Positions 1-27,098 of a stretch of DNA of 64,000 nt are shown here, piece by piece. The DNA is from Opitutales bacterium (GTDB taxonomy: Bacteria; Verrucomicrobiota; Verrucomicrobiia; Opitutales; Coraliomargaritaceae): assembly GCA_030729385.1 (NCBI GenBank), contig JANQXM010000048.1, positions 1 through 64,000 on the forward strand, given 5' to 3'. Made by a program: the position numbers and the translations under genes. Numbering within the stretch: position 1 is the stretch's first letter; every line of letters starts with the position of its first letter. Under the pieces are notes generated by a model. The model worked only from the letters and a program-made list of their open reading frames with translations. It searched no databases and had not been told where the DNA came from.

Positions 1-306
1 CTCGTTAAAAAAACTATGTTGGCTGGCGTCGGGCTGGCTGTCGTGACGAAAGATAAAGTTCTGGAGTCACTCGATGAATTGGTGGAAAAGGGGCGCTTGA
101 CGAAAGAAGAAGCTGCCGAGATGTCTGACCGCATCGTTAATGAAGGTAAGACCGAAACGGAGAAGGCTAAAGTGGAAGCTGGCCGCCTGTTTACCGAAAT
201 GCTACAGCGTGCAAATGTGGTGACTAAAGATCAATATGATGCGCTTGCTGCTCGTGTGACCGAACTGGAAGGACGCTTGCATAAGGAGTTTCCGAATAAC
301 GATTAG
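1..306 (+). CDS. Phasin-like small coiled-coil protein, 5' end outside window
   Basis: The frame is open from the first base, so the gene starts before the window; the first ATG inside it is at 16 but LVKKT precedes it in frame. The N-terminal part (LVKKTMLAGVGLAVVTKDKV) followed by 'LVEKGRLTKEEAAE' resembles the PhaF/phasin-like proteins annotated as polyhydroxyalkanoate synthesis regulators. The remaining ~80 residues are charged and helical, ending in a heptad-rich stretch (ALAARVTELEGRLHKE), which suggests a coiled coil. In that family the protein coats granules or acts as a small cytoplasmic helper; no PHA genes are visible here, so a granule role is only an inference. Confidence 0.75.
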   Translation, partial: LVKKTMLAGVGLAVVTKDKVLESLDELVEKGRLTKEEAAEMSDRIVNEGKTETEKAKVEAGRLFTEMLQRANVVTKDQYDALAARVTELEGRLHKEFPNND

Positions 307-317
307 TCGTTTCGGGA

Positions 318-345
318 GTTGTTTGTTGCTGGTTGTTTGTTGTTT
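318..345. repeat. Heptamer tract: four GTTGNNK units
   Basis: Four units of exactly seven bases follow each other: GTTGTTT, GTTGCTG, GTTGTTT, GTTGTTT. Read on the other strand the units are CAAC followed by three variable bases, the same core as the tract downstream of the next gene (756-783). The tract lies between the phasin-like gene and the ribosome-binding site (GGAGG at 355-359) of the four-helix-bundle gene. Confidence 0.8.
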
Positions 346-370
346 GAGGCGTGTGGAGGCGCGATGAATT

Positions 371-748
371 ATGGGACGTATTGATCGCTTTGAAGACTTG
401 GATTGTTGGAAGGCTTGTCGCGAATTGCGTGTGTTTGTGACTCGTGAAATTACGCCGCAATTACCTGCGGAAGAACGCTATCGCCTAGTCGATCAGTTGA
501 TCCGTGCGGCACGTTCGACCACTGCGAATATCGCGGAGGGTTTTGGTCGTCGGCATTACCTCGATAACGCTAAGTTTATTCGTAATAGTTTGGGCTCACA
601 GCATGAATGCCTCGATCATTTGATCGCAGGCAACGACGAGGGGATGATTTCAGATGAGCAGTTAGTGAAATTTAGAGTGATTTTTGAAAAGTCGTCGGCT
701 CTTTCGAATGGATATGCGAGCTATTTGGCTCGAACTGCGAAGGAGTAG
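371..748 (+). CDS. Four-helix-bundle protein (S23/IVP family)
   Basis: 125 residues, the usual length for the family first found as proteins encoded in 23S rRNA intervening sequences and structurally related to the Avd accessory proteins of diversity-generating retroelements. Family features visible are the opening 'DRFEDLDCWKACRELR', the central 'LVDQLIRAARSTTANIAEGFGR' type helix and the terminal helices. No enzymatic residues are apparent; the molecular role of stand-alone members is unknown. A GGAGG sequence 11 bases upstream supports the ATG at 371. The gene is free-standing, not inside an rRNA gene, and is bracketed by two inverted tracts of 7-base repeats, which suggests it arrived as a unit. 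Confidence 0.88.
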   Translation: MGRIDRFEDLDCWKACRELRVFVTREITPQLPAEERYRLVDQLIRAARSTTANIAEGFGRRHYLDNAKFIRNSLGSQHECLDHLIAGNDEGMISDEQLVKFRVIFEKSSALSNGYASYLARTAKE

Positions 749-755
749 TTTCTCA

Positions 756-783
756 CAACAAGCAACGTTCAACTAGCAACTCT
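756..783. repeat. Heptamer tract: four CAACNNN units
   Basis: Four in-phase heptamers, CAACAAG, CAACGTT, CAACTAG and CAACTCT, fill most of the 36-base spacer between the four-helix-bundle gene and the UbiB-type kinase gene. The invariant CAAC core with three free positions is the reverse complement of the tract at 318-345, so the two tracts form degenerate inverted flanks around 371-748. Confidence 0.8.
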
Positions 784-784
784 T

Positions 785-2428
785 ATGAAACCTTTTAACT
801 ATCTCTCGAATGCTGTCCGCGCCCCTGAAATTGTGGCGATTTTGGTGCGTTGGGGTTTTGAGGATTTATTACTGCAGCTAGATACACCGCAGTTCCTGTT
901 GCGGAATTTAGTGCGTGAGAAGGTCACGCATCTGACGCCTTACGAACGGGTGCGTAATGCCTGCGAGGAGCTTGGGCCGATCTTTGTGAAGTTTGGTCAG
1001 ATCCTTAGCACACGGCCTGATAAATTGCCTGAGCCGCTGGTGATGGAGCTCAAGAAGCTTCGTAGCGAAGTGGTGGCGCAGCCCTTTGATAAAATTAAAC
1101 CGATTCTGCTCAAGGAATTGGAATGTGACATTGAGGATGTCTTTGCGGAGTTTGACTCAGTGCCTGTGGCTGCGGGTTCTTTAGGCCAAGTCTATAAGGC
1201 GAAACTGATTTCGACAGGTGAGTGGGTCTGCGTGAAAGTGCAACGTGCTGATATTCATAAAACGATTTCGGCGGATTTAGAGATCATTGGTTGGTTCGCA
1301 CGCCAGTTGCATACGCGGATCGAAGAACTACAACCTTACAATTTGCCAACACTATTGGCGGAGGCGGAGAAGCGCCTACACGAAGAGTTAAATTATAAAA
1401 ATGAGGCGGACAACGCCGAGATTTTCCGAGCCTTGAATGATAAGCCGAAGGTATTTGCGCCGAGGGTATATCGTGCGCTGACCACACGGCGTTTACTAGT
1501 GACGGAATGGGTGGACGGATGTGCGCCCGATAAAATTACCTTTGTCGGAGAAGAGGCTAAAGAATTGGCGCGAATGGGCGGTGATTCCGTCTTTCACCAG
1601 ATCGTCGGCACGGGATTTTTTCACTCGGACCCTCACTCGGGTAATATGCTGGTGACGCCAGATCAGCGTATTTGCTTTCTAGATTGGGGGCAGGCTGGGC
1701 AAATTACCTTGGAGATGCGGCATCACTTGGCGGATCTTTTTGCCGCGATCACCGCGCGTGATGCAGCAAAAGTCATTCGAGTCGCGGAGCGTATGGCGGT
1801 GAACAACCGACGAATTGATCGTCGCCCAATAGAAAAGGAAGTTACCTTGCTGTTAAATAAGCATAGGGAGTTCGGTCCCTCTGGGACGAAGATGGGAACC
1901 GTTGGTCTAGAGATGCTGTATATTTTTGGCACCAATGGGATCGAGTTGTCGCCAGACTATGTCTTGCTTTCGAAAGCGATTCTTTGTGTTGAGGAAACAG
2001 CACGGACTATGGACCCTGAATTTGATATTCAAGTCGTTGCGCGTCCTTACCTCGAACAGCTGAACAAGGAGCGCTGGAGCGCGACGAGTATTGCGCAGCA
2101 CACCTTGTATCCGATGTTGTCGATGCTGCGTCGGATGCAGCAAATACCTGAGAACCTGCAGCGTATTTTACAGCGGATCGAAGAAGAGGATTTGCAGATT
2201 AACTTTCACCATACGGGGACGGAGAACTTGCAGGAGACTTTTAATGCATCGATGAATCGCCTGACAGTGGGTATCATCATTGGGTCCTTGTTGATCGGAT
2301 CTTCGTTGATTATTACGACCGGGGTGAAGCCATTGTTATGGGGGCACCCTGCAATCGGTATTCTTGGCTTTCTAGTTTCAGGCATGCTTGGGATGTATAT
2401 CGTGATATCAACGCTTCGTAAGCATTGA
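785..2428 (+). CDS. ABC1/UbiB-type atypical kinase
   Basis: 547 residues, the usual size for AarF/UbiB/ABC1 proteins, which support quinone lipid biosynthesis as membrane-associated ATPases. The family signatures are present: the KxGQ motif (FVKFGQ, about residue 70), an alanine/glycine-rich loop (AAGSLGQV) in place of a normal glycine loop, the lysine of VCVKVQ, the ExD motif (NEADNA), the catalytic HSDPHSGN and the metal-binding DWG. Two hydrophobic segments near the C-terminus (about 490-545) are the usual membrane anchor. menC and menE lie a few kilobases away, so a link to menaquinone is plausible but not shown. Its stop overlaps the start region of the following yjbQ-type gene. Confidence 0.92.
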   Translation: MKPFNYLSNAVRAPEIVAILVRWGFEDLLLQLDTPQFLLRNLVREKVTHLTPYERVRNACEELGPIFVKFGQILSTRPDKLPEPLVMELKKLRSEVVAQPFDKIKPILLKELECDIEDVFAEFDSVPVAAGSLGQVYKAKLISTGEWVCVKVQRADIHKTISADLEIIGWFARQLHTRIEELQPYNLPTLLAEAEKRLHEELNYKNEADNAEIFRALNDKPKVFAPRVYRALTTRRLLVTEWVDGCAPDKITFVGEEAKELARMGGDSVFHQIVGTGFFHSDPHSGNMLVTPDQRICFLDWGQAGQITLEMRHHLADLFAAITARDAAKVIRVAERMAVNNRRIDRRPIEKEVTLLLNKHREFGPSGTKMGTVGLEMLYIFGTNGIELSPDYVLLSKAILCVEETARTMDPEFDIQVVARPYLEQLNKERWSATSIAQHTLYPMLSMLRRMQQIPENLQRILQRIEEEDLQINFHHTGTENLQETFNASMNRLTVGIIIGSLLIGSSLIITTGVKPLLWGHPAIGILGFLVSGMLGMYIVISTLRKH

Positions 2429-8669: not shown

Positions 8670-10412
8670 ATGAATAAAGCGGACATCGTAGATATACTTG
8701 AGGACATCGCTGTCCTTTTAGAACTGAAGGGGGAGAACCCGTTTAAGATACGCGCCTACTCGGGCGGTGCTCGTGTGCTGGACACGATGGAAGAAGATCT
8801 TGGGGCGATTATTGAGGCAGGAGAGTTGGGCTCTATTAAAGGAATTGGTTCTGCCTTGGTGGATAAAATTGAAACGCTCCATTCTACGGGCGAGCTGGAG
8901 TATTATACTAAGCTACGCGAGTCAGTTGCACCGGGTTTGATCGAGATGCTGGATATCCCAGGTCTTGGCGGGAAGAAGGTTAAGAAGCTGCATGACGAAT
9001 TGAAGGTAGAGAGTATTGATGCGTTGAAGGCTGCGTGTGAGTCGGGCGAGGTGGCTGCAATCAAGGGCTTTGGCCCGAAGTCTGCGGAGAAAATATTGAG
9101 CGGGATTGCCAATCGGGCGGCCTACGCCATGCGGCATCATTGGTGGACGGCGCGCGAGGTAGCTATGCCGATCCTAGAGGGCTTGCGCGCATTGTCGCAA
9201 GTGGAGCGAGCCGAGGCAGCAGGTAGTTTGAGGCGTTTGCGTGAAACGGTGGGCGACCTTGATTTTATTGTATCTTCGTCTGAGCCACAGCCAGTGATGG
9301 ACTGGTTTGTCGGGCAGCCGGGTGTGACCGAAGTGACGGCGCATGGTGCGACGAAATCAAGCGTGCGATTTGAAGGAGGCTTACAGGCGGATTTACGCGT
9401 GGTGCCCGCGGAGCAGTTCGCTTTTGCGCTGCATCACTTTACTGGATCGAAGGAGCATAATGTGGCGATGCGACAACGCGCACTGGCTCGCGGCTATAGT
9501 TTGAGTGAGTGGGGGCTCGCTGAAAAATCTGAAAACGGAAATCTGAAATCTGAAATATCGGATTCGATCCGCTCGGAGTGCGAACTATTTGAATTTTTAG
9601 GATTGGCAGAAATTGCGCCGGAGCTGCGTGAAGGCTTAGGTGAACTGGAGTCGGCAGAGTCGAAGGCATTGCCGCAGCTAATTGAAGCGAAGGATATTCG
9701 TGGCGTTTTTCACAATCACACGACGGCCTCGGATGGACGTGCTTCGATTGAAGAGATGGCGGGCGCGGCAGAGTCTTTGGGTTTCGAATATCTGGGTCTC
9801 GCGGATCACTCGAAGGCGAGTTTTCAAGCCAACGGGCTTAGCGACGAACGGGTGCTTAAGCAAGTGGAGCAGATTCGCGCGTTTAATGAATCCGGTGAAT
9901 CGCCAGTGCATGTATTTTCCGGGATCGAGTGCGATATATTGCCTGATGGATCACTTGATTTGGAAGATGCGACGCTGGACGCTTTGGACTACGCGGTGAT
10001 GTCGGTGCATTCTTCTTTCAGTCAGTCTGAAGAGGAGATGACGGCGCGTGTGATTAGGGCGATCGAGCATCCGGCGACCATGATGCTTGGGCATCCGACG
10101 GGGCGTATTCTGCTGCGGCGTGAGCCTTACAAAATTGATCTGCAGAAAGTCATTGATGCGGCGATTGCGAACAAGGTGATCATTGAGATCAATGCGAACC
10201 CGCATCGTCTGGATATGGATTGGCGCCTATGGCGACGTGCCGCAGAGCGTGGTTTAATGTGTGCGATCAATCCCGATGCTCACGACACTACAGGTCTACG
10301 ATATTTTGAGGCTGGTGTGAATGTCGCGCGTAAAGGTTGGTTAACTGCTAGGCACGTGTTGAATACCAGAGGGGCAACTGGTGTGGCAAAGTGGTTTGCC
10401 GATCGAGAATAA
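8670..10412 (+). CDS. polX: PolX family DNA polymerase/3'-5' exonuclease
   Basis: 580 residues, the normal PolX size. The order is an N-terminal helix-hairpin-helix region with repeated GIG/GFG hairpins (about 50-150), the polymerase palm ([18 protein letters not shown] with the DLD metal aspartates, and the strand holding QADLRVV), then a C-terminal PHP nuclease ([24 protein letters not shown]). It fills short gaps in base excision repair and trims 3' ends. An unusual linker ([14 protein letters not shown], about residues 285-300) is encoded by a heptamer tract (9520-9556) and is longer than I expect in PolX. It begins five bases after menE and converges on the AsmA-like gene with a 10-base gap. 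Confidence 0.93.
9520..9556. repeat. Heptamer tract inside polX
   Basis: The coding strand reads CTGAAAAAT, then four in-phase heptamers CTGAAAA, CGGAAAT, CTGAAAT, CTGAAAT. It encodes the extra linker between the polymerase and PHP domains. The same CTGAAA-type units recur at the 3' end of trpB (27024-27053). Confidence 0.75.
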
Positions 10413-25804: not shown

Positions 25805-27043
25805 ATGCAATCCGCAAAACCAGCCCTTGAAGTCGATCCCGTCAATTTGCCTGACGAGCGTGGTCACTTCGGCCCTTATGGTGGCATGTATGTGCCGGAA
25901 ACTTTGATGACCCCGCTCTTCGATTTGACAGAGGCCTATCATGATGCCCGCAAAGACCCTGAGTTCCTCAAAGAGCTCGACTTCCAGTTGCGTGAATTTG
26001 CTGGGCGCCCGACCAATCTCTATTTCGCAGATCGCCTGACTGAGCATTGCGGCGGAGCTAAAATCTATCTCAAGCGCGAAGACTTGCTCCACACCGGAGC
26101 GCACAAAATCAACAATGCCCTCGGTCAAGCCTTGCTTGCCAAGCGCATGGGTAAGAATCGCATTATCGCCGAGACCGGAGCGGGGCAACACGGCATAGCG
26201 ACTGCTGCGATGTGCGCCAAGATGGGCTTCGAGTGTGTCATCTACATGGGCGAAGAGGACATGCGTCGCCAATCACTCAACGTGTATCGTATGCGTCTCT
26301 GCGGCGCCGAAGTGCGCTCTGTCACTGCTGGTCAACGCACGCTCAAAGAAGCTGTTAACGAAGCCATGCGCGACTGGGTCACCAACGTGCGCACCACGCA
26401 CTACATCATTGGTTCTGCGCTCGGTTCGCATCCGTTTCCGATGATGGTGCGTGATTTTCATCGTGTCATTGGTGAAGAATGTCGCCGTCAAATTATAGAA
26501 AAAGAAGGTCGCTTGCCCGACGAAGTTGCTGCCTGTGTCGGTGGTGGTTCGAATGCGATTGGTATCTTCTTTGCCTTTTTGAAAGACCTTGAAGTCAACC
26601 TCACTGGCGTCGAAGCCGGAGGACGCGAAATCAAACGTGGGCATCACGCGGCACGTTTTGAAGGCGGCAAGCTCGGCGTCCTACAGGGCGCGAAGACTTG
26701 GATCTTACAAGACGAAGACGGTCAGATTGACCTCACGCACTCTGTCTCTGCTGGTCTCGATTACGCTGCAGTCGGACCAGAGCACGCGTATTATAAAGAC
26801 GCTGGGCGAATCGACTTTGGTTATGCCACCGACGCCGAAGCGCTCGATGCATTTAAGGCACTTTGCGCTATTGAGGGCATCGTCCCAGCATTAGAATCAT
26901 CGCACGGCATCGCCTACACTATGAAGCGTGCCCGTGAAATGTCCTCCGATCAAATTATCATCGGCAACCTCAGCGGTCGCGGCGATAAAGACGTCCAAGA
27001 AGCCGCACGGGTCTTGGGAAATGCTGAAAATCTAAAAACCTGA
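25805..27043 (+). CDS. trpB: Tryptophan synthase beta chain
   Basis: 412 residues from the ATG at 25805; an in-frame TTG at 25769 coincides with a TTGACA that could be a -35 box. It joins indole and serine to make tryptophan. The PLP lysine is in [13 protein letters not shown], the phosphate-binding loop is GGGSNAIG, and the C-terminal SGRGDKD motif is present. The last codons (AENLKT) come from a heptamer tract that continues past the stop. No trpA is in the window; trpG follows directly. Confidence 0.96.
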
Positions 27044-27053
27044 AAACTGAAAT
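27024..27053. repeat. Heptamer tract at the trpB 3' end
   Basis: CTGAAAA, TCTAAAA, a 2-base slip, CTGAAAA, CTGAAAT. The units are the same CTGAAAW type as the tract inside polX. The tract encodes the last residues of TrpB, including its stop codon. Confidence 0.7.
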
Positions 27054-27059
27054 ATACAT

Positions 27060-27094
27060 CGACGTTCAATGTTGGGCGTTCGATGTTCGACGTT
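27060..27094. repeat. Heptamer tract upstream of trpG
   Basis: Five in-phase heptamers ending in YGTT: CGACGTT, CAATGTT, GGGCGTT, CGATGTT, CGACGTT. The last unit ends four bases before the trpG ATG, where a ribosome-binding site would be, and none is visible there. Confidence 0.8.
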
Positions 27095-27098
27095 CGTT

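Follow-up and report, generated by a model that had tools for sequence, protein, structure and literature searches.

Near the start of contig JANQXM010000048.1 of an Opitutales bacterium, within the 64-kb stretch of DNA analysed here (the window), positions 318 to 783 hold a small gene of the S23/IVP family between two tracts of a seven-letter word that run in opposite directions, and the question is what ties the gene to the tracts. Our analysis suggests that the segment is one copy of an S23 element, a mobile unit of about 430-480 bp in which an S23/IVP gene is enclosed by ends that are inverted arrays of a short degenerate word, the putative binding site of the encoded protein, and we put the probability of this reading at about 0.8. 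The original prediction had described exactly 7-periodic inverted tracts with a CAAC core and three free positions, and this is borne out letter by letter. Four consecutive CAACNNN units occur twice in the window, where the chance expectation is 0.00, and the two occurrences are the S23 arms, on opposite strands. With any 4-nt core allowed at a spacing of 7 the window holds three fourfold arrays, among which the S23 arms are the sole inverted pair; 200 shuffled windows gave 0.01 such arrays per window and no inverted pair (0/200). S23 is the sole gene of the unit, its open reading frame (ORF) is enclosed by the complementary termini, and the inferred element fills the space from the stop codon of the left neighbouring gene to the start codon of ubiB, with the left array starting 12 nt past that stop codon and the right array ending directly 5' of the ubiB start codon. 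This copy sits between two protein genes and not within a 23S rRNA gene.

S23 loci were gathered from 80 named contigs of several phyla, from the window's family, from its phylum and from 20 further genomes; the named set was collected with a single S23 protein as query and is weighted towards the clade of that protein, and orthologous loci in the set are not independent of one another. Across 128 non-redundant S23 loci, similarity at lag 7 was 0.369 upstream (z 9.3) and 0.337 downstream (z 6.2), the flanks of other ORFs there giving 0.274 and 0.279, so the proposed tie between S23 genes and 7-periodic arrays withstood the comparison that had been set beforehand as its refutation. Lags 14 and 21 were also raised, as were lags 8, 10, 16 and 17 because some S23 loci have other periods. 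The control ORFs of this comparison were uncurated, and array density was counted as well for that reason: lag-7 arrays reach 0.95/kb within 200 nt of S23, 0.28/kb in other intergenic DNA and 0.04/kb in coding DNA, with none or few at lags 5, 11 and 13. The window's genome has seven distinct S23 loci, all of which show by eye periodic arrays of opposite sense on their two sides, with a different word at each locus. Two of its contigs (C66 and C70; L007 and L008) carry identical-flank copies of one S23 locus, probably an assembly duplication. S23 genes were also seen within CRISPR-cas operons, between cas10/cmr2 and cmr3 on a Picosynechococcus plasmid (L381, 1489-1845) and between cas6 and cas4 on an Anabaena 90 plasmid (L388, 1489-1857), and a search for S23 in phages gave no match.

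Both ends of a unit share word, period and unit order. When the upstream flank was compared with the reverse-complemented downstream flank, the mean score was 37.6 for a locus's own pair and 19.1 for swapped pairs, and the period, be it 7, 8, 9 or 10, is mostly equal in the two arms of a locus. In Bacteroidales S23 loci with the same neighbour genes the period is 9 or 10 according to the species, both arms changing together. The order of variant units is likewise mirrored between the arms, with 58 of 67 loci lying above the mean of their unit-shuffled arms (combined P about 1e-7).

The word also follows the lineage of the protein. With 164 S23 proteins arranged in a tree, the words, compared as 5-mer profiles, differ from clade to clade, and their lengths range from 6 to 10 nt. 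GTTGNNN is the word of the window's clade, an AGAAGTC/GGAGTCA clade takes in Verrucomicrobiota, Bacteroidota, Acidobacteriota, Chloroflexota and one deltaproteobacterium as well as cyanobacterial plasmids, and further clades have the words AAGATTGA (8 nt), TTGAGTGG (8 nt) and GTAGTG (6 nt). Two loci (L042 and L051) contain two S23 genes each, from two clades, and each gene is accompanied by the word of its own clade. Since the correlation between word and protein at closer range partly reflects common descent of whole elements, the comparison across phyla matters most: in the 126 loci whose protein has a neighbour from another phylum at 45% identity or more, the similarity of the arrays to those of that neighbour was 0.173 compared with 0.111 for distant proteins (P 4e-11), the corresponding values for control DNA 300 nt further out being 0.164 and 0.147 (P 0.02).

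Empty sites had been proposed as a check in sister strains, and they exist in the relatives of the window's genome. At the junction between the phasin-like left neighbour and ubiB, the window's genome has S23, as do four from a second genus (G010, G014, G021 and G024); G001, G002, G004, G005, G008, G011 and G019, including both same-genus relatives, lack it, and the S23-less junction of G002 (L011) has no array. The window S23 gene shares 90.2% identity with its G014 counterpart, 85-86% with those of G024 and G021 and 78.5% with the one in G010, the genes flanking the window copy being 73-78% identical to the relatives' flanks. The simplest reading of these identities would be horizontal gain of the window S23 between genera; slow evolution of S23 as the sole cause of the high identity is unlikely because G010, a congener of G014, has a copy with no more than 78.5% identity. 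A second junction in the family, gltB|gltD, occurs in every state: with S23 and its arrays, with an S23-less hairpin of an 8-nt word, with short remnants, or clean, at 21-23 bp.

Movement can be followed most closely in cyanobacterial plasmids. An element of about 430 bp is common to Aulosira, Nostoc and Trichormus plasmids, where the copies are 78-82% identical in unrelated surroundings, and the homology of the three begins and ends at the outer ends of their CAGAAGT arrays. Other Nostocales contain empty counterparts, about 98% identical, of the Trichormus and Scytonema copies, and empty counterparts of the Nostoc plasmid copy were found too. Empty sites without an array (L390-L392 and L396-L399, with L011 above) demonstrate that the arrays belong to the unit and not to the site. 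At the Trichormus/Scytonema site a Brasilonema plasmid has a gene-less hairpin with the same word, and Nostoc C052 has a truncated element. A gene-less unit of 181 bp with the same ends interrupts an S23 gene of Nostoc N6, the gene being intact in two close relatives; a copy of this unit splits rarA on a Calothrix plasmid, and the unit was found at 46 places in 32 plasmid records. The arrays are evidently the ends of a mobile element of about 430 bp, and its 181-bp gene-less derivative has evidently jumped into genes. On plasmid2 of Calothrix brevissima (L410) rarA is also interrupted, by other DNA and at another point than on plasmid1. A second S23 gene, from another clade and with GGGAAAA-type arms, occupies the next gene junction of the same plasmid-locus type on pNsp_c of Nostoc ATCC 53789 (L395, 882-1259), and is absent from pNsp_b of that strain.

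The encoded protein, P0001, matches the S23 profiles PF05635 (84.8 bits, cut-off 33.8) and TIGR02436 (71.1 bits, cut-off 24), and a profile search found no Y1 domain in it. Its AlphaFold model (pLDDT 95.3) has the four-helix-bundle fold, with Foldseek matches to the S23 proteins 2GSC (TM 0.87, E 2e-6) and 2RLD. The suggested relation to Avd, the cofactor of diversity-generating retroelements (DGRs), held up as a likeness of fold: the model matches Avd 4DWL at TM 0.75 (probability 1.00), and Avd and the DGR ribonucleoprotein (4DWL, 8UBx) at probability 0.99-1.00 with 5-9% identity, a likeness in fold only. Because of these matches a nucleic-acid-binding ring formed by the S23 protein is plausible. 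The Xanthomonas protein 2GSC is a homopentamer (PMC4990558), and among arms of four or more 7-nt units the commonest numbers are four and five, so that one word per S23 subunit is possible. In the mechanism we propose, the S23 protein, a bundle of helices like that of Avd and a pentamer in the case of 2GSC, would bind its own word as DNA or RNA, at several units per array, and binding would bring the two ends together for movement; as S23 has no recognised catalytic domain, strand cutting and joining would probably be performed by another enzyme in trans, while slippage would grow and shrink the arrays and keep the ends variable.

The expectation that the protein helps to make or spread the tracts thus stands in part, in that the unit is mobile and its word tracks the protein lineage, and is not supported as a templated, reverse-transcribed or mutagenic process, there being no RVT_1 match in the window's genome and the arms resembling the terminal repeats of an element more than template and variable repeats. 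Taken as a whole, the evidence is best read as a mobile family of S23 elements, widespread and for the most part unrecognised, with a protein predicted to recognise its own tandem-word ends. A bolder proposal, which we hold tentatively and at somewhat short of even odds, is that S23 proteins are ring-forming, word-specific nucleic-acid binders which define a mobile class spanning many phyla, with ends read by period and core, about one word per subunit, and not by fixed sequence, and that the dispersed products of this class make up much of the excess of heptamer tandem repeats in bacterial genomes.

Arrays without the gene also occur. In 728 kb of S23-bearing genomes 12 solo lag-7 arrays were counted, and in 702 kb from S23-less genomes 2 (P 0.013, or 0.003 when the threshold is relaxed), the other lags being about equal between the two samples. 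Among 71 named loci, solo arrays resemble the S23 array of their own locus, with 23 of 122 in the top 5% against 6.1 expected (permutation P 2e-4), and gene-less repeats that match the S23 flanking repeat are dispersed and were seen in relatives. A 49-kb stretch of a Nostoc plasmid contained two lag-7 arrays, neither with the AGGAGTC word. Tracts without the gene lie in the window itself as well. At positions 27024-27096, in the junction 5' of trpG and downstream of a gene that is trpB-like by eye, an 8-periodic CTGAAAAC array is followed by a 7/14-periodic GTTCGAC array without an S23 gene, GTTCGAC being also the word of distant S23 loci in G001 and G002 (L346 and L347); at 9520-9565 an AAATCTG array of period 7 lies in apparent coding sequence with no S23 gene nearby.

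The reverse causal order, in which polymerase slippage produces heptamer arrays everywhere and S23 genes prefer them as insertion sites, could appeal to reports that such arrays are the most abundant intergenic tandem repeats of prokaryotes, without known function (PMC6344855), and that slippage has been proposed as their cause (PMC4692102). The array-free empty sites contradict it, and as the arms are inverted and not direct, the word tracks the S23 protein across phyla, and lags 5, 11 and 13 show no or few arrays, we regard it as very improbable. A role for RNA alone, in which the two arms of the transcript fold into a long stem for RNase III to excise and selection for the stem, not mobility, keeps them complementary, is favoured by several observations: RNase III releases the Coxiella 23S rRNA intervening sequence (IVS) at a terminal stem of 28 bp (PMC4990558), the 23S rRNA gene of Azospirillum holds an S23 IVS with 7-mer arms, unit order is mirrored between the arms, and many insertions lie between genes of a single operon. 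Yet in the sense strand of 72 S23 loci, mismatches between the arms are more often A-C than G-U (131 vs 81), the reverse of what pairing in RNA would leave, and gene-less hairpins inside genes and the link between word and protein clade go unexplained. The idea that the arms are kept alike by RNA pairing was accordingly rejected, and as a full account the RNA explanation is rather improbable, while processing of a stem can hold alongside mobility.

Two further explanations would bring in a partner enzyme. In the first, S23 would play the part of Avd beside a reverse transcriptase, variable heptamers being copied from a template; the shared fold (probability 1.00, TM 0.75) and the variation at the three free word positions speak for it, but RVT_1 has no match in the window's genome (G000, 99.6% complete) and occurs in just 13 of the 44 genomes of its family, many S23-bearing genomes lacking it; the gene has neither a template/variable repeat pair nor a target protein beside it, and A at mismatched positions is not above its frequency, as estimated from the arm-mismatch counts, which leaves this the least credible of the explanations. 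S23 elements might instead be non-autonomous passengers of a Y1 transposase (IS200/IS605, RAYT-like) that acts on hairpin ends without target duplication. Y1_Tnp is found in 22 of 23 S23-bearing genomes of the window's family and in 0 of the 21 without S23, and two clean gene-less insertions lack a target duplication, both just 5' of ATAA. The window's genome, with its seven S23 loci, has 0 matches to Y1_Tnp, as also to DDE_Tnp_1, and the association is confounded because DDE_Tnp_1 shows the same split over genomes (16 genomes of the family, all S23-bearing, and none of the S23-less ones); genome streamlining accounts for the co-occurrence of Y1_Tnp and S23 equally well. We therefore consider a Y1 passenger unlikely, though by no means negligible. 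A reverse transcriptase or a Y1 transposase as a required partner was rejected, as neither is present in the window's genome.

Several observations weigh against an S23 element as we describe it. To our knowledge neither catalytic residues nor an accompanying transposase have been recognised for S23, and genome size and general mobile-element content confound the joint occurrence of S23 with solo arrays. Over half of the arms do not reach four clean 7-nt units, owing in part to other periods (6, 8, 9 and 10) and in part to decay, and at a few loci (L130, L165 and L108) the arrays on the two sides are in direct, not opposite, orientation. The junctions are not uniform either: besides the two gene-less insertions without target duplication 5' of ATAA, two S23 insertions repeat 3-5 bases, which include the stop codon of the upstream gene and may come from the target or from the element. 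Finally, the high-identity empty sites are those of cyanobacterial plasmids and not of the window's own species.

Table 1. Features of the S23 locus in the window and its two neighbouring genes.
Feature	Position	Strand	Remarks
Inferred element (left array, S23 gene, right array)	307..783	+	Outer limits inferred from filled/empty comparison
Left terminal array	318..345	-	GTTGNNN x4 read on +, i.e. CAACNNN x4 on -; read directly
Units of left array			GTTGTTT 318-324, GTTGCTG 325-331, GTTGTTT 332-338, GTTGTTT 339-345
S23/IVP four-helix-bundle gene (P0001, 125 aa)	371..748	+	PF05635, TIGR02436
Right terminal array	756..783	+	CAACNNN x4, inverted relative to left array; read directly
Units of right array			CAACAAG 756-762, CAACGTT 763-769, CAACTAG 770-776, CAACTCT 777-783
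Left flanking gene (96 aa)	16..306	+	Coiled-coil/phasin-like by eye, no Pfam match; same neighbour in relatives
Right flanking gene, UbiB/ABC1 atypical kinase (ubiB)	785..2428	+	PF03109, 216 bits

The repeats themselves have been described several times. GGGAATC arrays in Xanthomonas and GGGGAYT arrays in Nostoc, partly as inverted pairs (PMC4692102), the cyanobacterial short tandemly repeated repetitive (STRR) sequences and the TAACTGA repeats of Beggiatoaceae (PMC4679880) resemble the arrays reported here in being degenerate, intergenic 7-nt tandem arrays that are sometimes found as inverted pairs. S23 is mentioned nowhere in the texts of PMC4692102, PMC4679880 and PMC6344855, and in a literature search that did not extend to preprints and most subscription journals we found no link of S23 to arrays beyond the Coxiella IVS. 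The S23-array link may help to account for the abundance of 7-letter repeats in bacterial DNA, and joining gene and arrays through a protein-dependent word offers one testable answer to both problems. The Xanthomonas genome with the GGGAATC arrays also encodes the solved S23 protein Xcc0516.

Among mobile and mutagenic systems, DGRs share the protein fold and differ in having a reverse transcriptase, template and variable repeats and a target gene, which are missing at the window locus. Miniature inverted-repeat transposable elements (MITEs) are likewise short, multi-copy, gene-less units with terminal inverted repeats, whereas an S23 element ends in arrays of a degenerate word and its gene codes for no known transposase. 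A further comparison is with the repetitive extragenic palindromic (REP) and REPIN sequences and their RAYT transposases, in which the RAYT gene is flanked by cognate short repeats, gene-less hairpins of the same sequence are dispersed, and protein lineage and repeat co-vary. S23 genes show the same three features, and differ in that S23 lacks the Y1 transposase domain and that its repeat is a tandem word of 6-10 nt where REP is a single palindrome.

The nearest described unit is the IVS. In the 23S rRNA IVSs with an S23/IVP ORF (Coxiella, Leptospira, Azospirillum) the S23 gene also lies within terminal inverted repeats: the Azospirillum plasmid locus (L389) is a 23S rRNA gene (RF02541, 2529 bits) with an S23 ORF inside it between inverted AGAGGAC-type heptamers, and in Coxiella GACAGAT heptamers that vary in number among strains precede the S23 ORF (PMC4990558). 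These reported heptamers qualify the newness claimed for the unit by the original prediction, whose further description of it as mobile or mutagenic is supported for the former and not for the latter. Units of the window's type differ from these IVSs in lying between protein genes, in having arrays at both ends and a clade-specific word, and in leaving gene-less copies, and it is this general form, with clade-specific words and dispersed gene-less copies, that appears to be undescribed. Judged by their sequences, classical 23S rRNA IVSs and S23 elements are evidently one thing, the unit inserting demonstrably both between operon genes and inside 23S rRNA, so that the classical IVS falls within a far broader family of mobile elements, one that inserts between the genes of operons.
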